From: Treponema sp.
Lineage (GTDB): Bacteria; Spirochaetota; Spirochaetia; Treponematales; Breznakiellaceae
Assembly (NCBI GenBank): GCA_031256035.1
Contig: JAIRRJ010000087.1
Location: 62,001-126,000 of the forward strand
Direction: 5' to 3'
DNA: 64,000 bases
Part shown: positions 29,114-52,822 of the stretch, one piece after another
How the letters are laid out: each line of letters starts with the position of its first letter
How positions within the stretch are numbered: position 1 is the first letter of the stretch
The notes under the pieces: generated by a model
What the model saw: the letters and a program-made list of their open reading frames with translations, nothing else
Databases searched by the model: none
Told to the model about the DNA's origin: nothing
Position numbers and translations under genes: made by a program

Positions 29114-29926
29114 TCATAAACCAAAGATGTATTTCTCTATTAGTTCAGGATTCGTTGCCACATCCAGCCCTGTAAGATTTTCCCGCGCCAGATCGGGTAC
29201 TATTTCAAAATAACCATAATCCTTCCACTTATTCACGTTACCTGGATTATGAATTATCGAATAAACATTCCGCACATACAGGTTGTTGGTTCTGTTAGGC
29301 TCTTTTATGGTAACCATCCTTTGCAGTTCCTCTGACAGAATCGTGTCGTTAATGGGCCTTTTGGTAAACCCCTCTTCGCCTATATCGTCAATCCTGATAA
29401 AATCAACGGTATACGGGCGTTCCACAAAAAACATCCCTTTATTGATGCGCCAATCCTTTGTTCTGTCCGTAACAATTGCATAAATGGTAATACAGACCAT
29501 GCCGTTGACTACTTCCCAGATCCCGACTGCTTTGTCAAAATAGGTTTCATCTGCGCTGTCAATTTGAATGCGGACAAGTCCATAACTTAAAATGAAAAGA
29601 TTATTGGGGAAAAATGAATAAGAACTACTTGCTATTTGCATACCCCATGTTGCATTCATCCACACCCCCAACAGCCTGGATTCATTGTGCGGTAAAGCGT
29701 ACTGCGCTTCAAATTCTTTAAATTCTTCCCAAAAATATGTACCTATTGGAATGTCGAACACAGAAAAAGATTCTTTGAATTCAGCTCGAAATTCTTCAAA
29801 GGTGTAGCCTCCATTCTCCTGCTCCAGCCCGGCGTTATTTTCGATAACGGCATTCCCGTCCTTTCCCTTCGCTTTGCACGAAACGCACAATAATGAAAGA
29901 ATGACAAGCAATAAAATCTTTCTCAT
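29114..29926 (-). CDS. Lipoprotein downstream of the giant protein; candidate immunity protein
   Basis: 270 residues with signal MRKILLLVILSLL and lipobox LCVSC (Cys17). The mature part has two zones: an N-terminal helical segment (TFEEFRAEFKESFSVF) and a beta-rich zone (SRLLGVWMNATWGMQIASSSYSFFPNNLFILSY...) resembling lipocalin-like lipoproteins seen in treponemes. No catalytic motif. Its ribosome site, AAGGAGG, lies in the last codons of the giant gene and its ATG follows the giant's TAG by two bases, so the two are translated together. In that position a lipid-anchored partner or immunity protein for the giant's hydrolase-like end is plausible, but unproven. Confidence 0.8.
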   Translation of the reverse strand: MRKILLLVILSLLCVSCKAKGKDGNAVIENNAGLEQENGGYTFEEFRAEFKESFSVFDIPIGTYFWEEFKEFEAQYALPHNESRLLGVWMNATWGMQIASSSYSFFPNNLFILSYGLVRIQIDSADETYFDKAVGIWEVVNGMVCITIYAIVTDRTKDWRINKGMFFVERPYTVDFIRIDDIGEEGFTKRPINDTILSEELQRMVTIKEPNRTNNLYVRNVYSIIHNPGNVNKWKDYGYFEIVPDLARENLTGLDVATNPELIEKYIFGL

Positions 29927-29928
29927 AC

Positions 29929-32900
29929 CTACCTCCTTACCCTGAAAAAAAACATAGATTCATTTAATTGTTTTCTGCGTTCTTCAGGTATAGTCCACTT
30001 CGTTGTTGTAAAGCTAGTGCAGGAAGCCCCCGGGAACGCACCTGCATGGAGAACAGCCAATTCATAAGCGGGCAACTGCGATGCCATCATTCCCTGATAA
30101 CGCTGCTTCCCATCAGGAGTCCAGCCCTTCATTTCTGGAAAAGTGCCTAATTTCAAATCTTCTCTGGGTACAACGAGCGCTATATGCCCCGGATTTCCAT
30201 CTTTTCCCTGGACTATCTGAACAACCATATCTCCGTTTTTAACCATTTCATTTATATGCAATAAGTTGTTGGCGTCAGGAACTGGTATCGGTTCCAGATT
30301 ATTGTTGCGTAGGAGAAAATCATACAATTGTTTTGTATCCCCATTCCACCCATTGAAGATGGTATTATATGCGCCATCTTCATTAAGATATTGTTTATTC
30401 ATGGCAATAAAAAATGTGAGACATTTATATAGTATATCACCATTTGGTAAAGTTTCAGGTAAATATGGTTTTCTTGTTTCAGGGTCCGTTATCAGATCAT
30501 ATATTGCTTTTATAGCGCCTTCAGGACATTCAACGTACGGGTTCCAATTTTCAAAGCTTTCTCCTACCAGTGTTGTTCCTGAATCGTCCACAGGAGAGTT
30601 TTGAACAAGAGAACGCCACGATTGTGCAATCCCCTCAAGGAATTCCTCCGGAGTCTTTGTTGATTCCTGTTCACGGACAAGAGGAACATTGGGTATATAT
30701 TTCTCTTTGTCATTTTCATGCTGTAATTCGGGTGCAGATGTCATGTCATCCATTTGTTGAACCACACCATCTCTATTCAACTCCATATTGCTCTCTTGTT
30801 GAACCACGTCATCTTTACTATACTCCAAATTGACCTCAGGTGTATCCCACTCCGGGTTACCAATGTCAGGCTCGTATTGGGACAGCGATGCATATAATTC
30901 ATTCAACATATCAAGATAGAGACTATGCGTGGATTTCACGATTTCGTTATTTCGGTTCCATGCCATAGCTCCTTTGACAATGTTTATCAAATTATCAATG
31001 CTGACGTTTGCGCCGCCCGTACCGATGTTCATTGACGCGCCGTCGTGGCCAAGGTGCAATTCAAGTAACCCGCTTTTCATTTCTCCGCCGGTAAACAGGC
31101 TGAGATTGAGTACATTTAATGTAAAATCACCTCCCATGGCGTAGTTTACTCCCTGTCCCACCAAAGAACCTGCCAGTTCATTAAACTTTGAAATATTTTC
31201 CTTTTCCATTTCGGTTAATAGCAGTGACAACTTTTCCTCGTTTATGCCGCTGTTGATGGCTTTCAGGGTTCCGCTGGTTAATGCAGTTGCCATGGATGTC
31301 AATGCGCCTGATACTATACTGTCAGCATTAAAAACTTTTGTAGAATAACCCCAGCCATCATCTCGGTTGTAGGTAATTCCGCTGAAGGCGCTGGTAGCCA
31401 AAGTTGTTGTAATTGACTGAACTCCTGCCATTGCGGTTTGCGCTGCAATTATACCTGCTGTGCTGTTTCCAACTTTGTTCATGACAGTATCGGTAAGTCC
31501 CCGCCAGACAGTATCACCATTACTAATGCCATTGAATAATCCAGAACTAAAGCTGCTTACAGTATTGATTGTCAGTGCCTTGCCTAAGTTAAACGCTGCT
31601 TCATCAATGGTTTTATAACCAAATCCGAAATCAAGAGCCGCAAACACTAAATCGCCGGCGGTACTCATACGTATCCCCTGAACTATCGTTCCAAGTGCAA
31701 TTGCTCCGCTGCCGCCGGTAATGACTGAGGCTGCTATTGCTCCGGCAATTTGAACTGTTGAACGGATTGTTGGCGCCTTAAAAAAACTGTCCCGGTCATC
31801 CCACATCGGTTTGTCCCAGAAGGGCAAACCGAGTTCAGCATTACCTCTTGAATCAGTTACTAACCAATAGGTATATTCAGTGATTAGACGTCCGATTTCT
31901 CCTTTGCCCTCGTCATAGAACATCGAATCTCTGGAACTGTCCATCTCTTCACTGGGTTTCATCGCAGGACTGTATCCAAGATGAACTCCGAATTTTCCGG
32001 GAGACTGTTCCCGTTCTTCTTTTATTCCCTTTTTCTTTATTTTTATTGGGTCTTTACCAATGCCGAATGTTTCTTTTACGATGTCTTCAATTTCAGAAAA
32101 TGCATTTTCTATTAAACCTATCACTGCCAAAGAGTTCAAAGTTGCAAGATAATTTTCGTCAAGATTTGTTTTCAGCGTTACCTTTTCCATCCGGTAATCT
32201 CTGTATCCGTTTATTTTTTTTGTTTCAGAGACTACGGGTTGAAAGAGGGTAGAACCCATTATTATGTCTTTTACATAATCTTTTCCGCTTCTTCTCCAAA
32301 GTCCGTTTAAGATAAATGTGTCATCCATATTTTCCCGAAAACCATTGTTTGCCGATTCAACATTGCTGGCAAGATTCTTCATCGCTTCATCTACAGCATT
32401 GCCGGCGCTTCTGGCCAGTTTTCTGGATTCTCTTTCAGCAATTTCAGCGTTGGTCTTTCTCGCCAGATCAGAAGCGGCGGCTTTTACAAGGGCGGCATCA
32501 CCTGTAAAGACACCTCCCATTCCCCGCCTTACAAGGGGAGACGGGGTAACATTATTTAACGAGCCGAAAGCGCCGGCCATATTGACAATTCCCGAAGCCT
32601 GCAAAAGGCCGGACATCAAATCATCCGCAACAGGTGCGGCATTTCGTATGCCAAATGGTTCTCTGGTGTCCATGAACCGCGCCAGCCGTTCTCCCTCTGT
32701 TCCTACAAGTAACAGAAAGGATTCCGCGGATGCCTGATTGGCTGCTTCCGCAGCCTGTTCCAGCCATTTCTCTTTGTCCTCAAGACCCGCTAAATACGCT
32801 TCAGCCCATTCATCACTGACGCGGTTATATTCATTTTGGAAATTGATGTTCCACTGTTTGTAGGCATCTTCCATTTTTTTGATGCCGGCACTCCAGTCCA

Positions 32901-35900
32901 TCCTGCCGGCTTCAAGTAAATTAGCCGCAGAATTCCGCCATTCAAGATGTTTTTCTCTTATATCCTGACGCATCTGATTCCATTCAATCTCTCTCGCCGC
33001 AAATTCAGCCATGTATCTGTTTTCCAGAGTGTTGGCTGTCATTAATATTATTTCATTCCCAAGCAGATAATACTCTTTGTAGAAATTGTTATCACTGTTT
33101 ACATACAATGAAAAATTATCCAACAAAGTTTTTTGAATATTCCCAAAATGATTTTTCCATGCCGGAGCATTTTGTCCGAAAGCTTTCTCTGCCGCATTTC
33201 GCAGAGTCTCAATGCTGATGGTTCCTGCAATATAGCCTTCTACAGCTTTATGATATTCGATTTCATTCTGCTGCCGGATTTCTTCGTCTTCAAGATATTG
33301 TTTTTCCAATGCGTTTTTACTCTTCCTTTCCTGTTCATCCGCCCATTTAATCAGGCTGTCAAGCGCGGCATATACGGTTTGATGGGTTCCGTTGTTTTCG
33401 CTTTGCATTTTGTCCCAGAATGTTTTGAGGGTTGCAATATCCCTGGAGTTTATTGTTCTGGTCTGTCTCAGAGCAGCGTTGATTTCATTCCATCCAACGC
33501 TTTGTCCGGCTTCTTTTTTCCCCTCAAGAATATCAAGAGCATTGCAGGATTTTATATACTCAGAAGCATTTTTTTTGATTGTATCCAGGTTATTAATTAA
33601 TCCGCTTTGCCATTTTAAAACAGAAGAAAAAGCTTCAGAAAAGCCGGGACTAATTCGGGATAAAGCGCTCTTGTTAATATCTCTCATTTCAAAATATAGT
33701 AAATTTGGAAGAAGCCACCATTCATCCACTTTTTTTTGTGCCAGTTTATATTTGTCATTTACGTAGCTGTGAGCAACAGAGTATACATCGAAAGTATGCA
33801 TTAATGAAAACCCCTTGATATAATCGTTGCATTTGCCTGACAATGTTAATATTACATAGAATTCAAGATCAGCTTTTTCTTCTTTGCTCAGCCCGTCCCA
33901 TGCCCAGCGATATAGCGTGTCATAGTTGCTTAATACAAAATCATTTACGGCACTGTACAGGCTTTCAGGGGGGTCGAATAATTCTCCTTTTACTGTAACT
34001 ACACCCCATGAACCGTCTTTCTTCATCTGTCCCAATCCCGAATAGCAATTTTTCAAAAAATTGATATCTGAATTGGCTTTTATCAATGAACTCAAAAGAT
34101 AATCTCTTGCATAGCTCCATTGTTTGAATTTACTGTAATCCGTAAAATAGCCGGTCATTCTTTGACTTAATTCTCTTAGAGCTTCATCAAACAAGCTGAT
34201 TTCATTTCTCTCGCCATTCGGCATTACGGTTTTATTGAAATATTCATCAAGAGTTTTAGCGCTGGAAGCGTTAACCCCCGTAATCCTCATTGAATCATCT
34301 TTTGAAAAAGCAAGACGTCCATCCTTTACAGTAATGATGTCTTTTACTGTCCATGATGCTCTGGAACCGGGAGATGTGTAGTTTGAATATTTTTGATCTA
34401 CTCCTCCAAGATTATAGAGAGAATGTTCATATTGAGCTAATATTTTTTCATTGTTGATTAGTTCCTTTTCAGTTGCTGATAATACAGCCTCCAGAGCTTC
34501 AAGTGTCAGCAGTTTCCTTTGAAAACTTTTTTCATATTCAGAAAACAGCGCATTATATTCAGCGTTAACATAAGGGCGTTTTTTTTCATTGTTGTAGATG
34601 TCAGAAAGTACAGTGAGAACCATTTTGGCTTTTTCGAGTTTATTCCTGCAGTAATCGGGATCAACTTCATTGATGCTTAAGTAAGCAGTGCTTGCCCATC
34701 TTCGGATCGCGTCCTGTAACTCATATTCAAACCGCGCTTTTTCCATATCTTCATATTTTTTCTTGAGTATGCTGTATTGATTATCATACTTATTACTGCT
34801 GTCAAGAAAATTTTCTGCCTCTTTTAAGTATTCATCCGTTAATGCTTTATGAATACTTTCCTGGGTTTTCAGAATATCATACTGGCTGTCAAGTTTCTTT
34901 TTGGCTTCCGCCGCAGACATCCTGGAAATTTCCAATGCGCCGCCGAGTCGTGATATTTCGCCGTATTCGGATTTTAGTATGTATAAATAACGCTCGTTTC
35001 TCGAGACTTCATCCCTGTAGAAATCATAAAATTGTTTTGCTGTTCCATCAGCAATTATGTTGTCTCTTTGTGAAAACAGTTCAATTGCATCATTCAGGCA
35101 GTTGGAAAAATAAACGGCAGAATCCAGTGCATCCAGCATCATGCCTTCTTTCCATGAAGACGCAGAAATTATCGCACGATCATATACTTCAAGGTTTTCG
35201 CGAGTCAAATGACTGCGCCAATGTTTTTCCTTGCCCCAAATATTCATTTCATCGCCGCATTTATCCCATGCCCCGGTGATTTGAAGCCTACAGTTAATCA
35301 GATTAACCTTTTTAATTATTTCCGTGAAAGAATCATTGATTTTCGCAATTTCATCATCGTCCAAATAATTCAGTGAATTGGCATAATCAGATAAATCTTT
35401 CCATTCCGTCATCAATCCTTCATATTCAAGTTCAAGCGCCTTAACATCAAATGATACATTCAAATTGTAGAAAAACGCATAAGCTCCAATGTATTCAATG
35501 ACGGCTCTTTTCCAATTAATGAGTTCATTTTCAAACCATTCAGGAATCAGCAGAAAGCAGTTTTCAAATTCAAGCAGAAATTGCGCCGCATTTTGAATGA
35601 AATCACCGGATTTATACAGAATTGATTCACAGATGGTTTGAGGCTTGGGCAGCAAAAAATTAGTCGAATCAAGATCATAATTGTCGTATAAATTTTTTAG
35701 GGAATCAAGAGAGTTCTGCCAAATCTCATTTTGTCCGAATGAACTGATAGCGGCATAGTTATTGTATAAATTAAGCAGTCCCAGACAGAGATAATAATCA
35801 TTTATATAATCTGTCAAATATTTTTCTGATTCCGTAAAGAACGAATTTCCCGAAAGAAAAAAGCCGATAAATTTATTTTCTTCATCAGTATCGGTGTAGG

Positions 35901-41700: not shown

Positions 41701-41824
41701 CTCCTGTATTTTCATTGTTTTTTTCATTTGAGTTGATAATGACGAATAACGAAAAAGAGCAGATTCCGATCAGTATGCATAGGCTAGCTTTTTTTCTTTT
41801 AAGCCAGAAAACAACATTTTTCAT
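38723..41824 (-). CDS. RND-family permease, second subunit
   Basis: 1,033 residues with the RND plan: one N-terminal helix, a large periplasmic loop, helices 2-6, a second loop, helices 8-12. Porter-domain features include GLDISEIERSITIPLEDALSAIPGI (53-77) and LDQEKLASLDL. In helix 4 the AcrB motif VDDA is reduced to AVDAVIL, keeping one Asp; in helix 10 the usual Lys position reads GMTINAAVLC. So the proton relay differs from HAE1 pumps and resembles the heavy-metal/RND minor types. Its start overlaps the stop of the first permease by four bases (ATGA). Two non-identical permeases suggest a heteromeric trimer as in MdtBC. The giant-protein gene follows after four bases. Confidence 0.87.
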   Translation of the reverse strand: MKNVVFWLKRKKASLCILIGICSFSLFVIINSNEKNNENTGGSFVVKIKHYGLDISEIERSITIPLEDALSAIPGIMAVQSSSENSLSRVYVRFPGGRGRYEAVCDAAQRVYENLPSSAQRPEIFSSANSMVPVWSAAVFSSGFDDVKENILTVQMLEKIVKPRLESLEGAGEIMVYGVGQKEIVIVLDQEKLASLDLEPSMIAEVLGMNDSIFSGGIIVQNKREIIITVDGRYAQPGIYGSRDKPSLEKALIPLGEGKIVELSEIALITEQERTPDIISRLNGRKAAVISIMGRHEADLRKLSRDIKKELSTLSLPLEFTVLSDLGAEEAAAFRSVFNAAMLGAIMVAVISFLLGGNKSGNYSGFFCALAIPVICLLSAAILSMCGFRINRTVLAGIAAGVGTAVDAVILCSEKLRKCSDYGRASESLSELSGPLIAGAATTVVALVPLSSIKDGETGIIAAGIAAVTLTALCISLSLLPPLLLWGMNSREHSLLKVLESFRCTHKHVSRLMHRFLAADVKFCIRYPIQIASSAILITAAAVIALFAKGVDTGRHGSENSVYAQVEFDGGLLAEEADRLLAEYSVKLAGCKGIKNVETGARTGSGSLLVSFDPVQTKTHLVRDMARQIPIPSGFLFFHENTNKDRYWEIRISGDEESKCREIANELAQICAGHPLIRELVLNFKQGSKKLILQPDRDLFAKAFAKSNAGFSSAASTVRMGVYGPVAYKRVDSKGETDVRIRTGSGNDLLKNVMRKTKDELMNILVSAGNSENMFSLPIDSIVKTIEEIEPASIRRVDRRRTASITITTAPKDPRRIKHELTGIFRKLELPPGYSIEFDPDAIQAAQALSRTVISLIMAIIFCYMIIASINESFTVPLLVLSAVPPSLAIPALCMVFSGSAYNSAIACSFIAVSGMTINAAVLCTDGLRASFKTENVKMAAVYSALRRKMPALLATTGTTVAGAFPFLFLREGANTLIRTLSLVGGLGVICSCICSITIIPSLFWFFAIDRNLRGKIEFRLCGKNSFSMKNKD

Positions 41825-44800
41825 TTTGCTCTCCAGTTAAAGAATCTGATCAAGACCGGCGGAATGGCAAAAAGACTGAGCATAGTTGACGCCGCAAGTC
41901 CGCCCAGCATGGCGAGAGACATTGATTTCTGTGAGTTTCCAAGTGGACTGAGAATCAAAGGCAGAAGAGCCAGAATTGTTGTTGTCGTTGTAATCAATAT
42001 CGCCTGTAGCCGCTCGGAAGCTCCCCGGTAAACGGCGGCAGTCACAGTACAGCCGGCTTGAATCTTTTCATTACTGATTTCAAAAAGAACGAGGGAGTTA
42101 TTCACCACAAGACCAAAAAGAGCGGTTAATCCGAGAACAGCGCCTGAGTCAATCTTTGTACGGGTAATCATCAATGCGGCTCCCGCACCTGCCAAAGAAA
42201 AAGGAATGCTTATCATGAGTATCAGCGGAAGAAGAAAGGATTCAAACTGAGCGCCCATGCTTATGTAGAGCATTATCAGCACCAAAAAAATGTAAAGCAG
42301 CAGTGAATTACGATATCTGCTAAAAACCGATTCATCCGCTCCTGTAAACCATGGATACTGCGCGGCAAATTTCACTGCCGTTACGGGATTTTTCTTGTCC
42401 GGCGAAATATCCGCGTAAATAACATCGCTGCGATCAAGCCGCGCCAGAGACGCTTCCGCTTCACTGCGCTCTATCCTGCCGAGAGAGCCAAGGTATACTG
42501 TTTTCCCCTGCGGTGTTATTAAGGGAATTTGTTCAAGCCATTTTACCGGTTCATTAATTCCATTGTCTCTTTTTTGTCCTGTTACACGCACATCAAGCGG
42601 TCTGCCTTCTATTTCCAGTGTAACTGCGACAATTCCCTCGTTAAGAACGTATAAAGTTTCGGCAATTCCTGCCGCAGACATTGAAAGATACGCGGCAGCT
42701 TCCCTGTTTGGGTACAGCTTCAGTTCCGGTCTTTGTCCTCTGGGTCTGTAATTCACGGGAATTGACGCATTTTTAAACGTGTTCTCCGCTATCTCAATCC
42801 GTTGAAGCATTTCATTTCTGTCTTTCCCTTTAATTACAAAAGTGCGTTCTCGTGAAAGCCCCAGTAAATTTTCAATTCTGTCTCTGGGAAAATATACAGA
42901 GAACGGATAAACAAAATTTTGTTTCATGGCAGAATTTATTTCGGCTAACGCTTTTTCAGGTTTTACCTCCCTGTTAATTGCACAGCGCAAAATCAATTCC
43001 TCTCTTCTGTAATCAATATCTGCTCTGCGGCCTATGTCCTCTTCTTCGGCGCCCGCTCTTCCATGGACATTCCTTATTGACGGTAAACCCGAAACAAACC
43101 GTGAAATTTCAGCTCCGGCGGAACCCGCCGATTCAAGTAAAGCGCCGGGCGGGAAAATCACCGAAATCTGCACTTCTTCCGCTTCATCAGAATTTATGAA
43201 AACCATTGGTCTCAATAAAAGCATGATTGTCCCCGTAAGACTTACCAGTACAGCAATAGCAATAACTCTTACCGGGCGGCGAATAATGACAGAAAGGAAG
43301 GTTCTGTATTTTTTTTCAAGTAAGCCGTCTCTGAGCGTGTGTAAAATTTTCATAAATGGATTTTTATTAATAGTTCTTGATTTTTCCATAACGTTCATGT
43401 TAGCTGTCATATACGTTACAAAAAACATTCTGAATAATGAAGGGAGAAAGAATTGCGCGTAAATCCATCCTGTGAATACCGAAGTTACCAGCGAAGTCGC
43501 TATGTCTCCAAAGAGGCTTCCCAATGGACCTGGCAGAAAAATGATGGGCGCAAAAACAAGCGATGTAGTCAAAGTAGATGCAAAACTTGAACCAGCGATT
43601 GAAAATACCTTGTTTCCGATTTCTTCCGGTACGGGCGTACAATTTCTTTTTCCGAAGGTTCGATGAAGCAAATCCAGTACGATCACACCTGTATCGGACA
43701 CTAGGCCTATACCCATTGCCAATCCGCCCAGGCTCATGCCGTTAAGTGATTTTCCCGTAACGGACAGGACGCAAATACCAGCAGCTACTGATACAGGGAT
43801 CGAAAGGGCAGTAAGCAGCGAGAACCGCAGACGCCGGATGAAAATAAGAAGCACCGACATCACCGCAGCGGCTCCCAGAGCAGCTGAAATTGACAGGCTG
43901 GTTATTCCTTTGATTAACGAGGGAGTAGAATCGCTGACAATTTCTATTTGCGCATCACGCGAAAATAGAGAAACGGCTTCATCTATTGTTTTCTTTATTT
44001 CCCTGGAAAGCCGTATAGGATCAGCTCCCGGTCTTCGAAAAACTTCCAGAGCTGTGGTTTCCGTTCCGTTATAAACGAATATACTCTCTCTCCGGCTGGT
44101 AGTCTGGCAAAGATCCCCGGCATCTTCTACTTTTAAAGTTCCGTCTCCCACAGGCAGGATCAAACGTGAAAGTGACGCTGTTGAATCAGGTCTGCCGGAA
44201 CCAACCACCACGAGTTCCATATTTCCCTCACGGGCATTCCCGGCGGGAATATCCGCGGTCTCCCTTGCCAGCAGCCTGACAAATTCAGCAGGACTTAAAC
44301 CAAGAGCGGCAAGGCGTGATGCGTCAAGCGAAAGTTGTTCTTCTGTGAGTTCTCCGCCCACAAGAACAACCAAACCAACTCCGTCTATTCTCCTTAACCG
44401 TGCGCGAAGTTCATATTCCGCTAATTTGCGGGCAAACCCGCAATTCCCGTTATGCGAACTTATCGCTATTACAGCGTGAGGCTCGTTTGCAGAATCACCC
44501 GATGTTACCGTGGGTTTGCGAATTCCTTCAGGAAGTCCCGGGTACACCGCGTCAACAGCTTCACGTACAAGAACCGACACTGCCATTGGATCAATTCCCC
44601 AGCGGAAATCCAGGCTGATAATTGAACGGTTGTCGCGTGATATGCTGCGCATCCTTTCAATGCCTTTTATCGGAGAAAGACCATCCTCAAGCGGTATTGT
44701 AATCAGAGTTCTTATATCGTTAGCTGCCATGCCATAATATACAGTCTCTACCGTTACCCTTGGCACAGAAAATTCCGGCAGCCGGTTAACAGGCAAAGCA

Positions 44801-44892
44801 ACAAGAGAAAAAATCGCCGCAATAATCAGCGCCGCCAATATCATGATTACCGTAACCGGACGGCGGATAAAAAGATTTATAAGTCCTTTCAT
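41821..44892 (-). CDS. RND-family permease, first subunit
   Basis: 1,023 residues, closer to canonical RND than its partner. The N-terminus, KGLINLFIRRPVTVIMILAALIIAA, is classical. PLEDGLSPIKGIERMRS and DPMAVSVLVREAVDAVYPGLPEG mark the porter domain. Helix 4 reads GIGLVSDTGVIVLD, where AcrB has VDDAIVV, so only one of the two Asp residues is kept. Helix 10 has FGLVVNNSLVLFE, with Asn in place of the AcrB Lys. It sits in the inner membrane and would pass substrate to the adaptor and TolC protein encoded upstream. The lipoprotein gene before it ends seven bases upstream. Confidence 0.88.
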   Translation of the reverse strand: MKGLINLFIRRPVTVIMILAALIIAAIFSLVALPVNRLPEFSVPRVTVETVYYGMAANDIRTLITIPLEDGLSPIKGIERMRSISRDNRSIISLDFRWGIDPMAVSVLVREAVDAVYPGLPEGIRKPTVTSGDSANEPHAVIAISSHNGNCGFARKLAEYELRARLRRIDGVGLVVLVGGELTEEQLSLDASRLAALGLSPAEFVRLLARETADIPAGNAREGNMELVVVGSGRPDSTASLSRLILPVGDGTLKVEDAGDLCQTTSRRESIFVYNGTETTALEVFRRPGADPIRLSREIKKTIDEAVSLFSRDAQIEIVSDSTPSLIKGITSLSISAALGAAAVMSVLLIFIRRLRFSLLTALSIPVSVAAGICVLSVTGKSLNGMSLGGLAMGIGLVSDTGVIVLDLLHRTFGKRNCTPVPEEIGNKVFSIAGSSFASTLTTSLVFAPIIFLPGPLGSLFGDIATSLVTSVFTGWIYAQFFLPSLFRMFFVTYMTANMNVMEKSRTINKNPFMKILHTLRDGLLEKKYRTFLSVIIRRPVRVIAIAVLVSLTGTIMLLLRPMVFINSDEAEEVQISVIFPPGALLESAGSAGAEISRFVSGLPSIRNVHGRAGAEEEDIGRRADIDYRREELILRCAINREVKPEKALAEINSAMKQNFVYPFSVYFPRDRIENLLGLSRERTFVIKGKDRNEMLQRIEIAENTFKNASIPVNYRPRGQRPELKLYPNREAAAYLSMSAAGIAETLYVLNEGIVAVTLEIEGRPLDVRVTGQKRDNGINEPVKWLEQIPLITPQGKTVYLGSLGRIERSEAEASLARLDRSDVIYADISPDKKNPVTAVKFAAQYPWFTGADESVFSRYRNSLLLYIFLVLIMLYISMGAQFESFLLPLILMISIPFSLAGAGAALMITRTKIDSGAVLGLTALFGLVVNNSLVLFEISNEKIQAGCTVTAAVYRGASERLQAILITTTTTILALLPLILSPLGNSQKSMSLAMLGGLAASTMLSLFAIPPVLIRFFNWRAK

Positions 44893-44899
44893 TACTATC

Positions 44900-46429
44900 C
44901 TACTTAATCAGGGAAATCCTGAATGATTTTTCATTTTTGTTTCCCAGACTGTCTTTTAACCCCGAAGCGACAAGAAAATTCACAACTCCGAAATTAACCG
45001 TATTGGTGAGAACACCCGCAATTTCAATGCGTTCCATATTTTTCCAAAGCGGATGCTTTTCCCCGGCGGAAAAACCGCTTGTTTTCACCTGACGCGGTGA
45101 AAAGTTCAGCACACTATTGCTTGTTTCAATTCTGAAAAGCTCCATTACAGAAAACGCATCAATTGACGCGCCTTCCGCTGTGTCAAAGTACAGTTCAATC
45201 CATGTTTTTACACTTTCATTTGATGGATAATTATTTCTTCCGTCTTTAATGGGGAGATATTCAAACACCGAATCTATTCCAAACCCGGCAAGTTCATAAT
45301 CTGTTTCACTGCCTGGCGCCATTGGCATTCTTATTCCAGCAAGAGCGGGCGGTTTTGATAATTTCCCGTTTGCGAATACCCGATAAACATATTCATTTTT
45401 ACTTTCATTTCCTGCACTGTCCTTTATTCCTGATTTCAGCCTGAATACAAACCTGCTCTCATATGTTGGTCTTGTTTCAAAATGAAAAAGAAATTCGTTT
45501 TTATAATCAGGTTCGGTTTCCATAACAAGATTTGGCGCGCCTTCAACGCTCAGGCAATTTTTTACTGATATGCCGTCTACCGGTTTGGAAAACACCAAAG
45601 AAAGCCTGTCATCTTTTTCCCAGTCATGCGTTTCAACTAATGTTTCCGTTCCGTAAATAAAATTACTTATGTCAAGAGCAAGAGGTTTATAACCTCCGTT
45701 TTTCATAATACGGCTGGCATTTACAAGGTACGGAGCTTCATGATCCGTACCGGTTGTAAATATGCTGATAAATTCTTTCCCCATGTTTATTCCGGTCTTG
45801 TCTGTTAAAGCGGCAGAAACGCGGATTTCGTAACGTTTGTTTTGCAGCCAGGGTTCTGCGGGCGTGAAAATTGCAAGATTGCCGTTTTTTTCCAATTGCC
45901 AGAAACCTGTCATTGACGGAGTAAAAGAAACATTATCGTATAACGTGTCAAGCTGCACAGGCAGCGAAAAAACAAGACGCACCTCAGTTCTGGGATCAAT
46001 AACTTCGGTGTACGTTGCAGGATAACAGGAAAGCAGAACAGGGCGTGTATTACCGGGTCTGGTGGTGAATTTGCCTTCAAAAGGGGCATCCATATTAAGT
46101 CCGCCGGTATCATGAGTTTCGGCGGAGAGATTTATCGTATAATTCGTATTTGTTTCAAGCGGAGCAAACGGAACAAAAATCATTTTTTTGTCTTCCCAGA
46201 TAAAGCTGCCTTTTATCCGTCCATTGTCATCGTAGAGCGAGAAGTGACGCTCTACGCTTGATTTATCAGGCTCATGTGAAAAAACCATGGATATTATTAT
46301 TTCCGATGATTGTAAATGATACCCGCTTCCCGGTGTCCATGATGAAACTTCAAATTGAGATGACCTTAATATGTCGCAGGAATTAAAATGAAATATTATG
46401 AAAGCAACTAAAATCAATTTGCGAATCAT
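44900..46429 (-). CDS. Lipoprotein with Ig-like (Big_5/SbsA type) repeats, second
   Basis: 509 residues. Signal RKLILVAFIIFHF and lipobox FNSC (Cys18). Two or three Ig-like modules of the SbsA/Big_5 pattern follow: ...SSEIIISMVFSHEPDKSSVERHFS, then FVPFAPLETNTNYTINLS, and RPVLLSCYPATYTEVIDPRTEVRLVFSLPV with YEIRVSAALTDKTGINMG. Such domains make rigid beta rods on cell surfaces. The start overlaps the stop of the related upstream lipoprotein by four bases (ATGA). It is sandwiched between transport genes, so a periplasmic or outer-membrane accessory role in the exporter is inferred. Confidence 0.82.
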   Translation of the reverse strand: MIRKLILVAFIIFHFNSCDILRSSQFEVSSWTPGSGYHLQSSEIIISMVFSHEPDKSSVERHFSLYDDNGRIKGSFIWEDKKMIFVPFAPLETNTNYTINLSAETHDTGGLNMDAPFEGKFTTRPGNTRPVLLSCYPATYTEVIDPRTEVRLVFSLPVQLDTLYDNVSFTPSMTGFWQLEKNGNLAIFTPAEPWLQNKRYEIRVSAALTDKTGINMGKEFISIFTTGTDHEAPYLVNASRIMKNGGYKPLALDISNFIYGTETLVETHDWEKDDRLSLVFSKPVDGISVKNCLSVEGAPNLVMETEPDYKNEFLFHFETRPTYESRFVFRLKSGIKDSAGNESKNEYVYRVFANGKLSKPPALAGIRMPMAPGSETDYELAGFGIDSVFEYLPIKDGRNNYPSNESVKTWIELYFDTAEGASIDAFSVMELFRIETSNSVLNFSPRQVKTSGFSAGEKHPLWKNMERIEIAGVLTNTVNFGVVNFLVASGLKDSLGNKNEKSFRISLIK

Positions 46430-47865
46430 TTAATTACCCTCAGAAAAAGTGTTGCATCTTCTTTCATATAAATTCCTGCACCTGAACTAATTCCGTTTTT
46501 GCCGCCTGGAATTGTCAGTTTATAAAAATGAGCCTCATCGTTGTTTTCGGCTGTCAAGCCTCCCCATGTCATAAAGAGCCTGTCATTTGAAATCCAGTGT
46601 ACTGATTGAAGAGCGACAGGCGGCAGAGTTCTCGGGAAAAATGCGGCAAGCAAAACCAATAAAGCGGAATTTTTCTTTTCTTCATCGCCGAATGGCTGCG
46701 AAAAATAAATGGAAAAAGACAGTTCGCCTGTCGCAGGATCAATCGGAATAATCACTGGGTTTGCAGCGGAAAAATTTTCAACGATCGTACCATTGTCGAA
46801 CCTCAGTGATAAAATGTTCAGATGTGGAATATCGGGAATAAAATTAATCCTGTAATCGGATCCAATTTTAAGTCCCTCGCTGTCTTTTGTGTCTCCTGAA
46901 ACAAACAGGGTATACATTATCTCCGGTTCAGGGTCTTTGGTAAAAATATAGACAATACTTTTTTCAGTCAGGATTTCCGTTCTTCCTGAAAGAGAAGGTT
47001 CGAAGCGCAAAGAACGGAGAACATTTTCACCCATTGCTTTGTGGAATTCAACGGCGATTCCCTGCCCCGGCCCCAAACCTGTTTCTATATTCGCGCCGGT
47101 AGGAAACCACTGGCCATCGGAAAATAAAACAGGGAAAACTTTATTCACTTTTGGCAGGATTTGATCTTTATCAGTGGTAAATTGACCTGAAAACACTTTT
47201 GGCAGCGGTACGCCATCGCGGCTTTTTGCGCTTTCTTTTAAATTCCAACGATATGCTGTCCAGGGAGATAAAGCCTTGTCGGGAATGAGTTTGAGTGTTT
47301 TATCGTCAGCTAACCATTCAAAAGATTTATTTCCAAATCCGTCAACCGTTAACCCTGTTTCAACAGATATTTTTTCCATAGGACAGGAAAAATAAAATTC
47401 CAAAATTACATTTTCTGTTCCGGCAGATGCGCCGTTGGCAGGATAGTGCCCTGTCAATAACGGCGGAGCGTTTTTATTCATCGCATAGAATGAGACAAAA
47501 TGTTCAATCCGCAGTTCTCTGCCGTCAACCGATCTTACTGTTCCAAGAAGACTCATGGTGTAACGAATTCCGGCTGTCCAGCCCGCTATCGGAACAAAAT
47601 AAAGATCATTGTCTTTCCAGAATCGATCTCCGCTGATCACTCCGGCATCGGAACTTATCTGTAAAATACTTTCAGTTCCGCTTTTTTCCATTTCAGTGTC
47701 AAAACTGAGTTTCACCGGAGAATTCGGATAAGGTAATATGGAATCCGCGGTGTCAGGATAAATGATCATTCCAATCGGACGGAAATCAAAAAGACCACAT
47801 GATAACTCTGTCAGCGACAGCGAAATTGCGCATAACAAAGCAATTTTAATCCACAAGCGAAACAT
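46426..47865 (-). CDS. Lipoprotein with Ig-like (Big_5/SbsA type) repeats, first
   Basis: 479 residues. Signal FRLWIKIALLCAISLSLTE and lipobox ELSC (Cys23). Ig-like repeats: SPVKLSFDTEMEKSGTESILQIS and LYFVPIAGWTAGIRYTMSLLG, then PANGASAGTENVILEFYFSCPMEKISVETGL with LIPDKALSPWTAYRWNLKESAKSRDGVPLP. The modules match those of the following gene, so the pair arose by duplication. The start lies 20 bases inside the end of the adaptor gene. I see no binding or catalytic motif. A structural or substrate-guiding surface role is inferred. Confidence 0.82.
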   Translation of the reverse strand: MFRLWIKIALLCAISLSLTELSCGLFDFRPIGMIIYPDTADSILPYPNSPVKLSFDTEMEKSGTESILQISSDAGVISGDRFWKDNDLYFVPIAGWTAGIRYTMSLLGTVRSVDGRELRIEHFVSFYAMNKNAPPLLTGHYPANGASAGTENVILEFYFSCPMEKISVETGLTVDGFGNKSFEWLADDKTLKLIPDKALSPWTAYRWNLKESAKSRDGVPLPKVFSGQFTTDKDQILPKVNKVFPVLFSDGQWFPTGANIETGLGPGQGIAVEFHKAMGENVLRSLRFEPSLSGRTEILTEKSIVYIFTKDPEPEIMYTLFVSGDTKDSEGLKIGSDYRINFIPDIPHLNILSLRFDNGTIVENFSAANPVIIPIDPATGELSFSIYFSQPFGDEEKKNSALLVLLAAFFPRTLPPVALQSVHWISNDRLFMTWGGLTAENNDEAHFYKLTIPGGKNGISSGAGIYMKEDATLFLRVIK

Positions 47866-49198
47866 GGCTTCCCTCCCGCAAATTGGAATCCGGTCTCAGC
47901 ACAACCATTTCTTTTATATTCAAACCGGCGGTTATTTCACGATCTTCGCCATGAACTGCGCCCAGAACAATTTTTCGTTCGGTCAGAACGCTGCCGTTAA
48001 TAATAAAAACGCTACCTTCGTTATTTTTTTGATTGAAAATCGCAGATTCAGGAATGCAGATTATATGCTTTGGAGGGCCGATAATCACAGTAACACGCGC
48101 AAACATGCCCGGTTTTAGTTTTTCTGTGGTTTCGCCGTTTGTACTATCATGTAAGAGCACCCGTATCAGAAAACTCAAACTCTGGCTGTCCGCCTGAGGA
48201 TAAACCAAATCCACAAGACCTTCGCGATATTCTCCCGTTCCGTCTATCAGCACATTTGCTTTCATTCCCTTTTCGATGCGCAAAGCATCTTTCTCGCGTA
48301 CCGGGAAAAATGCGTATAACGAAGATGTGTCCATAAGGCTGAATATTTTATCCTGAAAGCGTACCCGCTCTCCTTCTTCCAGATAACGCGCTCCCACTAT
48401 GCCGGATGCGGGGCTTTTCACTGTCAACTCGGCAAATGCAATGTTAGCTGATGACAGTTCTTTTTCTGCTGCATCAAGTCTGGCGCGGGCTGCTTCCAGT
48501 TCCGCCCTGAGGCTTGAGGTCATGAGCGAAACAAGCGCATTTTGACATTCATTCTCATCCGCCGGAATTGCAATTCCCGCTTTAACAAGGTCCTGAGTAC
48601 GGCAGCCGATTTTTCGAATTTCAAGTTCTCTTTTCATAAGCAGGATTTGTTCCCATTCCGTATCAATGGCAAAACGGCCTGCGAGTATGGCTTCAGTATG
48701 AATGCCGCCCGCTTCATAAAGCGTTTCCTGATGTTGATGTTTGCGTTTGTCTTCTTCCCATTTTCGCCTTGCGAGAGCCAGTTCCGCTTCGGCTTTATCA
48801 AGCGCAAGCAATTGCGCTTCTGCCTGAAATGTCCCTTCCAATAACTTTGAGCCTGCCAGATCACAGGCGGCCAAAGCCTGCGAATAATTGTTTTCCGCTC
48901 TTTCTACAGAAAGTTTTATCTGCGGATTATCAATTAACAGCGCCACTGCTCCATGCTTTATAAAATCACCTTCACGAAAATAAAGTTTACTGATTACACC
49001 GTCATGCGGAGAGGTAATATCTACTCTGCTGATAAATGAAAGGCTGCCAAAACCGGATACTTCATCCGGCAGTTCACGTGTAGCTGCCGCCGCCCCTCTT
49101 ACGTTTTTTACATCAATGTCGCCGGCAGAAACAGGTTTCCCGCATGAAAAACAAAGTAACATTGTCATTTGAATTAATAAAATTTTTTTTATTTTCAT
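47846..49198 (-). CDS. RND periplasmic adaptor (membrane-fusion protein), lipoprotein
   Basis: 450 residues. Signal KIKKILLIQMTMLL and lipobox CFSC (Cys19). The HlyD-type lipoyl half-motifs are SRVDITSPHDGVISKLYFREGDFIKHG (about 57-83) and FAELTVKSPASGIVGARYLEEGERV (about 255-279), separated by an about 170-residue coiled-coil hairpin. A beta-barrel domain follows (ALRIEKGMKANVLIDG, LKPGMFARVTVIIG), then the membrane-proximal end. It bridges the RND permeases and the TolC-type channel. Lipid anchoring is the AcrA pattern. It overlaps the outer-membrane gene by four bases upstream and the Ig-like lipoprotein gene downstream. Confidence 0.9.
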   Translation of the reverse strand: MKIKKILLIQMTMLLCFSCGKPVSAGDIDVKNVRGAAAATRELPDEVSGFGSLSFISRVDITSPHDGVISKLYFREGDFIKHGAVALLIDNPQIKLSVERAENNYSQALAACDLAGSKLLEGTFQAEAQLLALDKAEAELALARRKWEEDKRKHQHQETLYEAGGIHTEAILAGRFAIDTEWEQILLMKRELEIRKIGCRTQDLVKAGIAIPADENECQNALVSLMTSSLRAELEAARARLDAAEKELSSANIAFAELTVKSPASGIVGARYLEEGERVRFQDKIFSLMDTSSLYAFFPVREKDALRIEKGMKANVLIDGTGEYREGLVDLVYPQADSQSLSFLIRVLLHDSTNGETTEKLKPGMFARVTVIIGPPKHIICIPESAIFNQKNNEGSVFIINGSVLTERKIVLGAVHGEDREITAGLNIKEMVVLRPDSNLREGSHVSLVD

Positions 49199-50625
49199 AA
49201 ATTATTTCCTTTTGATAATGTTTCATTGACAGAAGCTGTAAAAGCTGTCGCGGCTGCAAATGCCGTGAGTTCTCCGGGTCTAAGATCGAGAAAATATTCC
49301 AGTTCACGTTCGGCCTCCAGCAGAGCGGCTGCCGTCTGCGCCAGAGCGATCTCCCTTTGGGTTTTTTCGATATAGGTCTCCATAAGTTTCAACCTTGTGA
49401 TGTGTCCAAGATTCAGCCTTAGTTCATCAAGCCGGCAGCGTTCCGCAGATAGTTCAGCAGCGCCAAGAGCCAAATTTCTCTTTTGTTCAGCAAGAGCACA
49501 TTTTTCCACGGCGTTAGCCGCCATGCGACCTGTTTTTTCAAGAATAATGTTGTATTTATCCCGTTCCAGAGACAATGCAAGCATGGCTTGTTTTTTCCCG
49601 AACCCTGCCGCCGGGTTTGGTAAAGGGTTAAAATTGTTTTGAATCATTGCACTTCTGTCATGCGGAGGTTCCCAGCCAGACTGGGCAGCAAATTGATTTT
49701 GAAACCAGGGACTTGAGAAATCGATTAGTAATCCGACTGACCAGTTGTAGCGTGTTAGCGGATATTGCTGGCCGGTAATTGCGAAATTTCCGGTAACCCT
49801 AAGACTCGGTATCCATGAATGAGACGCGTATTTCAATTCAGCCTGCTTTTTTGTTATGGAAAAACGCGTTTCTATTAATTCAGGGTTACGCTCTTTTGCA
49901 AGGTTGCCGGCAGCAGCAGCGGCAGGTAATGTAACAGAATGGTTTATTTCAATTTTTTCCGTTAATGTGGGAAGTGTTTCAAATCCAAGAAGTTCGGCAA
50001 ACTGCCGCTCCATTTCGGATAAATCCAGTTTAAGGGAGTAAATATCCAGTTTTGCGTCAGCCAGATTGATGTCCGCATCTACAAGATCGAGTTGTAATGC
50101 AAGACCAAGCTCAACTTCTTCATTCAAAATCCGCCTTTGTTCTTCCAGCGCCGTCAAAGCCGATTCTTTTATTTCCAGTATTAATCTTGACAACAACACG
50201 TTACGGTAAGCTGAAATCGCTGACTCGGCAATTTGCGAAGCCATTCTGTCCAATCCCGAAAACGAAAGATCAAGATCCATCCGTTCAAGTCTTCTGGACA
50301 TTGAAGTTTTGCCGCCGTCCCAGACAAGCTGATCCATGTTGATACCGTAATTTTTGATAAACGAATCCGCGCCAATTCCCTGTAAACGGTCGTTTTCCGA
50401 GACGCTTAAACCAAGATTCGGAAAATATGCGCGTAATCCCCACCTCCATGCTCCTTCTCTGACATTTTGCAAAGCGCGGGCATATCTCAAATCAGATGAT
50501 GACGCAAGAGCAAAGTTCGCAGCTTTCGCGTATGTCAGATAATTATTGTCATCTCCGTGAACGGCGGCGGCCGCGAGCAATAACAAAAAAAGAATAAAAA
50601 AATTCACATTTATTTTACGCATCAT
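49195..50625 (-). CDS. TolC-family outer-membrane efflux protein
   Basis: 476 residues starting at the ATGATG at 50625; a frame open to 50649 would overlap more of the preceding gene. Signal peptide RKINVNFFILFLLLLAAAAVHG. It shows the two repeated OEP halves of TolC: LTYAKAANFALASSSDLRYARALQNVREGAWRWGLRAYFPNLGLSVS, and LAKERNPELIETRFSITKKQAELKYASHSWIPSLRVTGNF (around 250-290). It forms the trimeric channel through the outer membrane. Neighbours are the adaptor gene downstream and two lipoprotein genes upstream. Confidence 0.9.
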   Translation of the reverse strand: MMRKINVNFFILFLLLLAAAAVHGDDNNYLTYAKAANFALASSSDLRYARALQNVREGAWRWGLRAYFPNLGLSVSENDRLQGIGADSFIKNYGINMDQLVWDGGKTSMSRRLERMDLDLSFSGLDRMASQIAESAISAYRNVLLSRLILEIKESALTALEEQRRILNEEVELGLALQLDLVDADINLADAKLDIYSLKLDLSEMERQFAELLGFETLPTLTEKIEINHSVTLPAAAAAGNLAKERNPELIETRFSITKKQAELKYASHSWIPSLRVTGNFAITGQQYPLTRYNWSVGLLIDFSSPWFQNQFAAQSGWEPPHDRSAMIQNNFNPLPNPAAGFGKKQAMLALSLERDKYNIILEKTGRMAANAVEKCALAEQKRNLALGAAELSAERCRLDELRLNLGHITRLKLMETYIEKTQREIALAQTAAALLEAERELEYFLDLRPGELTAFAAATAFTASVNETLSKGNNL

Positions 50626-51163
50626 TTTTCTGCCTTTCATACAGAACAAGTTCTTTTACCGCTTTCTTGATTGCTTTTGAAAGCAGTTTCCCCGTTGTTT
50701 CAGAAGATGAAAAACTCCTGTCTCCCATGGCGGTAATCCGCCCCGCAGCCACCGGCAGTTTCTGATACAATGAAGCGTCATTTTCTGCCGCATCTTCATA
50801 ACCCCAAATGCGGACTTCCACGGATAAAGACCTTTTTGTCCGCCAGCCAAGACTGAATTCCCGTTCCCTCAATTGAATTGCAGCCGCATATTCCGGTCGT
50901 TCACCTGCCGAAGCAATTTTGCAGCGGTTATTCCAGAAGTAAAGCGGAACAAGCGAAGAGGCTTCCCTTTCTATTGAGTCCCAGCCGCCGTTTCGATCAA
51001 TCTGCACACCTAAAAGAACAAAAGTGGTCACATCAACTTCCGGTGTCTTTTCAGTAATGAGCCATGACTGGCTTTTTGAATAATTGACAGGTAATGCTTC
51101 ACAGGAAAGAAAAAGCGCCGGAATACAAATCATTATGATTTTTCTTGTTAACGTAATTGTCAT
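50615..51163 (-). CDS. Lipoprotein of unknown function in the RND operon
   Basis: 182 residues. Signal TRKIIMICIPALF and lipobox FLSC (Cys21). The mature part is a single small domain with VTTFVLLGVQIDRNGGWDS, FWNNRCKIASAG and LSVEVRIWGYEDAAEND; the C-terminal helix (KLLSKAIKKAVKELVLYE) is amphipathic. I do not recognise the family. Its start overlaps the preceding TPR lipoprotein by one base, and its end overlaps the TolC gene by 11. Such tight packing implies a part in the same machine, possibly at the outer-membrane channel. Confidence 0.78.
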   Translation of the reverse strand: MTITLTRKIIMICIPALFLSCEALPVNYSKSQSWLITEKTPEVDVTTFVLLGVQIDRNGGWDSIEREASSLVPLYFWNNRCKIASAGERPEYAAAIQLREREFSLGWRTKRSLSVEVRIWGYEDAAENDASLYQKLPVAAGRITAMGDRSFSSSETTGKLLSKAIKKAVKELVLYERQKNDA

Positions 51164-51810
51164 TACATTGCCTCTTTGATTCGGTTTTCAAGATTTATAA
51201 TCGAACGCAAAAGGGGAGTGTCCCAGGGAAGCATTGCTTTTGCGCGGCTCAGATCGTTCAGCGCTTCGATTCCTCTGCCGGCTACCCAGCGTATTCTTGC
51301 CCTGTCCAGCAGAACCATAGCGCTTTCGGCGGAAAGTTCCGCTGCCTTGTCCAGCAAAATCGCAGCTTCGTCGCTTTTTCCGTTTTCTTCAGCAAGCTCA
51401 GAAGCAAGCCGCAAAGCGCGAATATCCTGTGGATTGTCAGCCAACAAGGATTCCACCGACCGTACCGCGCTGTAAAGATCACCCTTCTCGCGGAGAATCC
51501 TTGCAAGATACAATCTCGCTTCAAAAGAAGATGGCCTGTATTTCAGAGTCTGACGGCAGGATTTTTCCGCTTTTTCAAGGTCTCCTGAAAAATATTCAGC
51601 CTTTGCACGCAGCATCAGTGCGGGAGGAAATTTTTTCACTCTGTGCAGAATTTCTATTGTTTCAGCAAGTCTGCCCTGGGCGTATTCATCGCCGGCGCGG
51701 GCATAAAGGCGGATCGTCTCTTCTTGTTTATCTTTGGAGCATGAAATAAAAAACAGAATAACAAAAACAGCCGCTGCTATTATGCGCAATACAAATTTTT
51801 TGTCTCTCAT
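51163..51810 (-). CDS. TPR-repeat lipoprotein
   Basis: 215 residues. Signal RDKKFVLRIIAAAVFVILF and lipobox FISC (Cys24). About five tetratricopeptide repeats follow (RLYARAGDEYAQGRLAETIEIL; ALMLRAKAEYFSGDLEKAEKSCRQTLKYRP; EARLYLARILREKGDLYSAVRSVESLLADNP; ALRLASELAEENGKSDEAAILLDKA). TPR solenoids scaffold protein contacts; here probably at the periplasmic face of the inner or outer membrane. Its ATG lies one base after the upstream stop, so the two are co-translated. Confidence 0.85.
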   Translation of the reverse strand: MRDKKFVLRIIAAAVFVILFFISCSKDKQEETIRLYARAGDEYAQGRLAETIEILHRVKKFPPALMLRAKAEYFSGDLEKAEKSCRQTLKYRPSSFEARLYLARILREKGDLYSAVRSVESLLADNPQDIRALRLASELAEENGKSDEAAILLDKAAELSAESAMVLLDRARIRWVAGRGIEALNDLSRAKAMLPWDTPLLRSIINLENRIKEAM

Positions 51811-51811
51811 G

Positions 51812-52822
51812 TTAACCTCTGCAAATGTAGGATAGCCGTTCAGCCAGCCGGCCTTTGGAAACCCTTGCCTGTCCGTCGAAGTAGTCCCGGTATCCGGGAA
51901 CTGAAGTCAGCGCCCTTAGCGCGCCCATAGCGTAAACCGTGTACGGGTTATCCGGCAGTGAGATAAGGGGAAGCAGGACATCAAGAAGCTGCGGATTTCC
52001 CGCGTTTACCGACTCTGAAATGATTAATTCGATTTCTGTTTTTGTTTTTATAGAGAAACCATCTTCTCTTTTTAAGCCGTTGTAAGCTGCCAGTATGTTC
52101 CGGCATTCGGACGCAAATGGTCCCTGCGGCGCGGCGTTGATGCAGTTTTCAGCGTATTCAGCGGCGATAATGCCGGGAAAAGCCCTCGCTCCGCGATACC
52201 AGTACTCAGGAAAATTCACATAACGTGCGCGTATGGCTTTGTAAGCCGCCGCCGCTTGTCTGTTTTCACGGTTTTTTTCCAGCGCACAGGACAAGACCAT
52301 CCAGCGGCCAAAACCGTCAGGTTCTTCCAGTTCGTCAAAGAGTGCGCCAAGACCGGTGGCAGCTGCATCCCACTGTTCACGTGTAAACGCAAGAACCGCA
52401 TCTGCTGCGAAAACAACCGAATCATCGTTATTTTGGGAAAGCAGATTCAAAAGACCCTGTTCAACATCGGTTTTTTGAATTAAGCCCCTGCCGTAAGCCC
52501 AGGCGAGTTCTTTATAAGCCGCCGCCACCGCTCCCGTATAATCTCCTGCTTTTTCCCGCATACCGGATTCCGCCAGAGCCATGCCTTGAAACCAGTTCCC
52601 CGCTCTTTCAAGTTCCGCAAGCTCATCCAGCGAATTGCGAATACCGGCAGCCTCATCCACAGCCGCTCTTGAGGGCTTTGCTGCCCATGTTTTTTCCGCC
52701 GCTGAAAGTGATGTTTGTGAAAGCGCCGCTTGTAAAAGCGAATTTTCTTCCCTTCCGCAGGCCGTGAATAGCGCCGCAGCTGTTAATAACAAACAAGACA
52801 ATGTTTGATAAATGATTTTCAT
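51812..52822 (-). CDS. Alpha-helical repeat lipoprotein, first gene of the RND operon
   Basis: 336 residues from the ATG at 52822, which has GGAG seven bases upstream; the frame is open to 52852. Signal KIIYQTLSCLLLTAAALFT and lipobox FTAC. The rest is helical, TPR-like but irregular (ALAESGMREKAGDYTGAVAAAYKELAWAYGRG; FAADAVLAFTREQWDAAATGLGALFDEL; AAAYKAIRARYVNFPEYWYRGARAF). No catalytic motif. It is the first gene of the cluster and divergent from the tetR gene, so its leader (52823-52948) holds the likely operator. Confidence 0.8.
   Translation of the reverse strand: MKIIYQTLSCLLLTAAALFTACGREENSLLQAALSQTSLSAAEKTWAAKPSRAAVDEAAGIRNSLDELAELERAGNWFQGMALAESGMREKAGDYTGAVAAAYKELAWAYGRGLIQKTDVEQGLLNLLSQNNDDSVVFAADAVLAFTREQWDAAATGLGALFDELEEPDGFGRWMVLSCALEKNRENRQAAAAYKAIRARYVNFPEYWYRGARAFPGIIAAEYAENCINAAPQGPFASECRNILAAYNGLKREDGFSIKTKTEIELIISESVNAGNPQLLDVLLPLISLPDNPYTVYAMGALRALTSVPGYRDYFDGQARVSKGRLAERLSYICRG

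Follow-up and report, generated by a model that had tools for sequence, protein, structure and literature searches.

Eleven genes on the minus strand (29114-52852) of a 64,000-nucleotide stretch of Treponema sp. DNA (contig JAIRRJ010000087.1, positions 62,001 to 126,000; hereafter the window), which is part of a 3.12-Mb draft genome, are on balance best read as a polymorphic-toxin delivery system. Its giant protein of 2,929 amino acids (aa) would enter the periplasm by the Sec route and then be handled by a machine containing resistance-nodulation-division (RND) permeases; the C-terminal tip of the giant would cut the cell wall, and a lipoprotein encoded downstream would confer immunity. Judged from sequence comparisons, the giant and its downstream gene are very likely a toxin and its immunity partner. 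The proposal that the RND machine is the dedicated exporter or displayer of the giant is held with less assurance, as the somewhat better-supported account. The genes are as follows, from first to last.

51812..52852, minus strand: TPR346, the first gene, a 346-aa lipoprotein resembling tetratricopeptide repeat (TPR) proteins; same place in relatives, lipobox-like sequence in 27/32 homologues.
51163..51810, minus strand: TPR215, a 215-aa TPR lipoprotein (Pfam TPR); syntenic, lipobox-like in 35/39.
50615..51163, minus strand: lipo182, a small lipoprotein of 182 aa, recognisable in only part of the relatives.
49195..50649, minus strand: TolC-type outer membrane channel (Pfam OEP, E 1.4e-24); syntenic.
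47846..49198, minus strand: lipid-anchored RND periplasmic adaptor (HlyD_D23, 8.6e-20; TIGR01730 RND_mfp above cut-off); lipobox-like in 41/50.
46426..47865, minus strand: Big5A, an Ig-like lipoprotein (Pfam Big_5); lipobox-like in 51/54.
44900..46429, minus strand: Big5B, an Ig-like lipoprotein (Pfam Big_5); syntenic, lipobox-like in 46/54.
41821..44892, minus strand: RND1 permease (ACR_tran, E 3.3e-143).
38723..41824, minus strand: RND2 permease (ACR_tran, E 1.7e-79).
29929..38718, minus strand: the giant, a putative polymorphic toxin protein of 2,929 aa, from its open reading frame (ORF) and from profile and identity comparison with relatives.
29114..29926, minus strand: putative immunity lipoprotein for the tip, 270 aa, starting 2 bases past the giant; a related pair occurs in genome G088.

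All eleven ORFs were recovered. The junctions from first to last gene are +1, -1, -35, -4, -20, -4, +7, -4, +4 and +2 bases, which bears out the tight packing described in an earlier note made from the sequence of the window alone; the -35 junction (lipo182/TolC) assumes a TTG start, and internal ATGs give a shorter overlap. The ATG at 52822 (codon 11 of the ORF) is plausibly a better start for TPR346 than 52852. The Pfam matches also uphold the efflux-type identities given in that note: an RND permease, an adaptor and a TolC-type channel lie in one operon (ACR_tran, RND_mfp over cut-off, OEP), and the two Ig-like lipoproteins match Big_5 with E-values of 5e-27 and 3e-12. A lipobox was found in 7 of the 11 products. 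No ABC gene was detected among the eleven by Pfam, the inner-membrane components being RND, and neither the giant nor the last lipoprotein belongs to a family in Pfam or NCBIfam. Promoter-like sites across the cluster were no more frequent than in shuffled sequence. Terminator-like sites showed no enrichment over shuffled sequence in one half of the cluster; the other half had more of them than shuffling gives, most lying on the opposite strand. The note had held that separate internal promoters and terminators would speak against its reading of the cluster; with promoter-like sites at background and one weak coding-strand stem, that reading was not refuted. The stem (38770-38755) falls within the final codons of RND2, immediately ahead of the giant, and may be a chance feature or may attenuate the toxin gene.

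The region upstream of 40 giants was compared in 39 relatives. Most of the named relatives are metagenome bins of Treponema and Spirochaetaceae, and several presumably come from termite guts, judging by their sample codes. The order TPR346-TPR215-(lipo182)-TolC-adaptor-Big5A-Big5B-RND1-RND2-giant was found on one strand, as far as the contig extends, in 34 of the 40 loci. The arrangement is not a chance one, for relatives with as little as about 30% identity still show this order. The comparison, suggested in the earlier note, also did not bear out its refuting case, namely that the giant occurs only in unrelated contexts: besides these 34 close loci, the machine still adjoins the giant in 13/20 more divergent ones, where gene order and orientation vary. 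At one further locus (L073) only the RND pair is missing, and another complete machine (L233) is present elsewhere in that genome. Among the remaining five, one contig stops at the giant, and G028, G029, G041 and G052 have machine genes on another contig. In G029 (L042), the giant is preceded by a TetR-like gene (40% identity to the tetR gene of the window) and an RND-like exporter gene, and the machine is split over other contigs.

Co-occurrence points the same way. Among 149 relatives, 57 have both the giant and Big5A, 5 the giant only, 2 Big5A only and 85 neither. A profile search of 393 genomes of the phylum recognised the giant in 47 (13 families), and all 47 also have Big5A; as a marker of the machine, Big5A is present in 123 of the 393, including 76 in which no giant was recognised. 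The giant thus depends on the machine, whereas the machine does not depend on the giant; a cargo or partner would be expected to behave in this way. Distances among the giant N-termini correlate with those of each machine protein (r 0.91-0.95) as strongly as machine proteins do with one another, both this correlation (uncorrected for shared ancestry) and the co-occurrence tests taking no account of phylogeny. The giant was not found among 72,556 plasmid records. Since the linkage is conserved over such divergence, a functional tie is hard to avoid. The earlier note had treated the lipoproteins and the giant as parts or substrates of one unit. Synteny and co-occurrence support this for the machine lipoproteins, TolC, the adaptor, the RND pair and the giant; a place in the machine is not supported for the last lipoprotein, which changes together with the C-terminus of the giant.

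Four regions can be distinguished in the giant itself.

38629..38718, minus strand: Sec signal peptide, about residues 1-30; hydrophobic peak at residues 4-30, the N-terminal hydrophobic segment being kept in homologues.
36229..38628, minus strand: conserved N-terminal region, about residues 31-830, from conservation and co-evolution with the machine (r 0.91-0.95).
30919..32031, minus strand: conserved, glycine-rich core preceding the tip, about residues 2230-2600; 12% Gly, low charge, the last conserved block, helical in the model.
29932..30450, minus strand: tip of the window giant, about residues 2757-2929; a likely cysteine peptidase or amidase, with Cys2766 and His2845 as candidate residues.

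When 34 full-length giants are compared with the window copy, most identity values lie at 22-66% as far as residue ~2600; beyond it they fall to 11-15%, the level of unrelated sequences. A long conserved N-terminal part with an exchangeable C-terminal domain is thus present, as expected of polymorphic toxins. The 51 readable tips fall into 21 clusters. In the tips of relatives, Pfam recognised Peptidase_M23 in 11 of the 51 and CHAP in one; M15/VanY was recognised in the window's own genome and in another. M23, M15/VanY and CHAP are peptidoglycan-cutting enzymes. A toxin-type enzyme at the C-terminus is evident in these relatives, and the tip of the window giant gives weak signals of one.

In most cases no more than about 100 bases separate the giant from the start of the next gene. 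A simple lipobox test on 46 of these downstream genes marked 20 products as lipoproteins, and another 20 have a hydrophobic N-terminal stretch. The downstream proteins were similar in 24/90 pairs sharing a tip cluster, compared with 10/945 pairs with different tips. For example, the tip of the window giant is common to only one of the 149 relatives, G088 (27% over 202 aa), and in G088 the next gene encodes a protein related to the last lipoprotein of the window (34% over 212 aa, E 2e-37). By both position and covariation, the downstream gene behaves as the immunity gene matching a toxin. Because the partner changes together with the C-terminus of the giant, the last lipoprotein is best read as the putative immunity protein for the tip.

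Orphan cassettes provide further evidence. The complete genome G067 (3,239,340 bases) has six orphan frames after the main giant, in the same direction (L117, L118; G067:C1:1194200-1226000). In this tandem array each frame contains part of the core or of the domain preceding the tip, matching the main copy or another frame at 82-97% DNA identity, and then switches abruptly to an unrelated tip; most are followed by a small gene of their own. The window's genome has three more C-terminal fragments of the giant type on short contigs (L002, L003, L004; G000:C12, C13); they share 92-94% identity over the first 150 bases, after which they diverge, and one of them ends in a VanY domain (E 1e-13). Since the contigs break at these fragments, at least one further giant with an unassembled cassette array is probable in this genome. 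Orphan cassettes with homology ready for recombination, as seen in G067 and in these fragments, are characteristic of polymorphic toxins, and the arrangement is familiar from the contact-dependent inhibition (CDI) and Rhs loci.

The tip of the window giant is less readily assigned. The tips of the window and G088 giants both keep a Cys (2766, 'KCLTFF') and a His (2845, 'GHIALV', with GHIA shared), an arrangement weakly resembling the pattern of NlpC/P60- and CHAP-like cysteine peptidases. The best Pfam match is Amidase_6 (E 0.077). In the AlphaFold model, the region 2763-2929 aligned with several Tse1/Tae1 entries at Z ~4 over 86-97 residues, with a root-mean-square deviation of about 4 Å, which is below the safe level and leaves the residue correspondence unsettled. 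Taken together, these weak signals from sequence and model favour a cysteine amidase or endopeptidase.

Pfam at E-values up to 0.1 gave no family in the giant, and sequence searches of solved structures with profiles of the N-terminal, core and pre-tip regions returned nothing significant. The AlphaFold model of residues 2060-2929 has a mean pLDDT of 62, and a Foldseek search with it found nothing below E 0.6. The best VIA-align result (Z 6.2) matched the core with helical membrane proteins, which is within the range of unrelated helical bundles. The N-terminal region (~31-830) is a candidate for the part recognised by the machine, given its conservation and co-evolution. In many relatives, a pre-tip domain of about 175 residues follows the conserved core before the sequences diverge. 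Most copies of this domain (termed A6; e.g. L110, L116) have the motif HEAYRDG...E...H, two have HEGTH, and the domain is missing from the window giant. One weak match to Peptidase_M48 (E 0.011) was obtained, and the domain is possibly a zincin-like self-processing protease that has decayed in most copies.

The permeases differ from drug pumps in a constant manner, one protonatable residue being retained in the aligned sequences. HAE1 drug pumps have a proton relay of two adjacent Asp residues in transmembrane helix 4 (TM4) plus a Lys in TM10. In all RND1 and RND2 copies the second TM4 Asp is gone and the TM10 Lys is replaced by Asn: the single TM4 Asp and the TM10 Asn are invariant in 51/51 copies of RND1, and in RND2 the Asp is kept in 44/44 and the Asn in 43/43. 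The solved structure nearest RND1 is MdtB. By alignment to MdtB and in AcrB numbering, the retained Asp is taken to be at the position of AcrB D407 and the Asn to replace AcrB K940. Energy coupling is plausible because all copies keep the one TM4 Asp. Among the other components, the lipobox is retained in most Big5A, Big5B, TPR and adaptor homologues, and the lipobox Cys of Big5A is found in at least 90% of 34 homologues phylum-wide. In E. coli, TolC has recently been found to bind the lipoprotein YbjP (PMC13082787), which is a precedent for lipoprotein partners of the TolC duct.

These parts suggest the following mechanism. The giant would first enter the periplasm, as its Sec signal peptide strongly indicates. 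The RND pair, adaptor, TolC and the Big_5 and TPR lipoproteins may form a trans-envelope machine that recognises the periplasmic giant by its conserved N-terminal region, takes it up and, powered by the proton gradient, brings it to the outer membrane or across it. The helical body might then present or deliver the C-terminal tip to a neighbouring cell, the glycine-rich core perhaps helping it to pass the target outer membrane. In the target periplasm the tip would cut peptidoglycan, as homology implies for tips of relatives and as may hold by extension for the window copy. The downstream lipoprotein, to judge from the covariation, would shield the periplasm of the producer, and tips and immunity genes would be exchanged as cassettes.

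Several points weigh against this reading. The giant and the machine are unlinked in the available sequence at 5/40 loci, and the statistics of their association ignore phylogeny, as stated above. For the tip of the window giant, no family match reaches significance and the fold match is weak. The permeases also depart from the usual RND proton relay, with Asn in place of Lys in TM10. A protein of 320 kDa would need unfolding to pass TolC, and to our knowledge no RND-TolC exporter of proteins has been described. Solved RND pumps carry small molecules (PMC8277102). Moreover, many genomes have the machine without a recognised giant, and the window's genome itself contains a second, nine-gene machine with no giant adjacent (L133, G000:C51, 1352-15076). 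Its gene set is TPR, TPR, small lipoprotein, TolC, adaptor, two Big_5 lipoproteins, RND1 and RND2, at ~25% identity. These giantless machines imply that the machine may have another job.

The main rival is accordingly that the giant is a polymorphic toxin that is not carried by the RND machine and crosses the outer membrane by another route; the machine would export a small molecule or lipid, or remodel the outer membrane, and be needed for the anchoring or folding of the giant. We consider this unlikely, at about one chance in four. It is favoured by the solved RND relatives that were found, all of them small-molecule or metal pumps, and by the giantless machines, one in the window's genome, whose function must be independent of a linked giant; the machine is also more widespread than the giant. 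However, the dependency is one-way and complete (47/47), the linkage is phylum-wide, and no other gene for an outer-membrane exporter lies consistently in the cluster. The second machine also hints at a pairing. A tree built from adaptor, RND1 and RND2 has machines with a linked giant on both of its deep branches, and giantless ones scattered; L133 groups with L150, the giant-linked machine of G119. The additional giant fragments in the window's genome are nearer to the G119 giant (59%) than to the window giant (41%). This suggests that machine type and giant type go together, each machine type perhaps having its own giant type.

It is improbable that the giant is a structural envelope protein remodelling the cell's own wall, with tip hydrolases acting on self under the regulation of the downstream lipoproteins. 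In its favour, the identified tips are indeed wall hydrolases, and the distantly related Leptospirales family TIGR04388 is named 'putative large structural protein'. However, housekeeping hydrolases keep their family between close relatives, whereas here 51 tips fall into 21 clusters, with orphan cassette arrays and tip-partner covariation, which are traits of conflict systems. Least probable is that a mobile toxin cassette, made up of the giant and its immunity gene, lies by chance behind an efflux operon to which it has no functional tie. In its favour, a weak terminator-like stem stands at the end of RND2, although the junction there is only four bases, and in a few genomes the giant is found apart from the machine. 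Against it, the order is conserved across families, divergence is correlated, all 47 genomes with a giant have the machine, and no giant was found on the plasmid records.

The giant and its machine can also be compared with known systems. Like the polymorphic toxin systems (Zhang et al. 2012, PMC3482391), the locus combines a long secreted protein with a conserved trafficking part, an exchangeable C-terminal toxin, a downstream immunity gene and orphan cassettes. The routes catalogued there are the type II, V, VI and VII secretion systems (T2SS, T5SS, T6SS, T7SS), PVC, TcdB/TcaC, PrsW and MuF, and the terms TolC and RND do not occur in the text; unlike these routes, the conserved partner here is an RND-TolC-lipoprotein machine. 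CdiA/CdiB (type Vb) is similar in its protein of ~3,000 aa, Sec signal, variable C-terminal toxin, downstream immunity gene and orphan cassettes. However, the giant has no Pfam family and the operon no CdiB-like product; by Pfam, the haemagglutination domain of two-partner secretion, filamentous repeats and a CdiB-type partner were not found. The TANFOR proteins of Bacteroidetes are giant polymorphic toxins confined to that phylum, with a proposed link to its equally phylum-specific type IX secretion system (T9SS; PMC7073777). The present system might be a counterpart in these respects, with an RND machine and not the T9SS as partner, and the giant does not match the TANFOR-type NCBIfam models. 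The MdtABC-TolC pumps likewise have an adaptor, TolC and two tandem RND permeases, whereas the machine here is accompanied by a giant protein, has a different proton relay and includes four or five additional lipoproteins. Type I secretion differs in having an ABC transporter, not RND, as the inner-membrane energiser, and the amidase effector Tse1/Tae1, which the tip weakly resembles in fold, is delivered by the T6SS.

Very long secreted spirochaete proteins are also known from TIGR04388 ('Lepto_longest') in Leptospirales. The window giant does not match the TIGR04388 model at E-values up to 1, and TIGR04388 was rejected as its own family; by profile comparison, the N-terminus of the giant is a distant homologue (hhalign probability 90%, E 1.6e-6). 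In some divergent giants, the window-family profile and TIGR04388 match the same place, and TIGR04388-matching giants adjoin the same machine in G245, G286 and G186. A large Leptospira protein, LA_3725, has been reported to carry a pre-toxin HINT domain (PMC4751964). There is about an even chance that the machines and giants represent a new, two-step type of protein secretion system across Spirochaetota, in which a dedicated RND pair with adaptor, TolC and Ig-like and TPR lipoproteins brings a Sec-exported giant out of the periplasm to the surface of the cell and so delivers exchangeable peptidoglycan-cutting toxins; the unexplained 'longest protein' family of Leptospirales would belong to it. 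The PADLOC defence models gave no match. No RND-linked toxin or secretion system of spirochaetes turned up in literature searches, whose coverage misses the majority of subscription papers and preprints. As far as can be told, the parts are of known kinds and the pairing of the giant with the RND machine is undescribed.

Some neighbouring genes were also noted. The tetR gene opposite the cluster was confirmed by Pfam (TetR_N), as the earlier note had named it. It was not found next to the machine of any relative with 1.5-2 kb of readable upstream sequence, and was therefore dropped as a regulator of the system. Two DUF4143-type genes lie at 3842-5089 and 54270-54806 of the window; one has an AAA_14 domain, and the second is apparently shortened at its start. 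A frame of 568 aa at 7803-9509 has no Pfam match.

Spirochaetes are diderm bacteria, and how they export large surface proteins and fight their neighbours is poorly known. The locus has the look of a route for antibacterial toxin delivery that has yet to be described. If this is true, the Spirochaetota would have a dedicated weapon, which would also explain the longest proteins of the phylum; RND machines would be able to handle protein cargo, and polymorphic toxin systems would gain an extra trafficking route.

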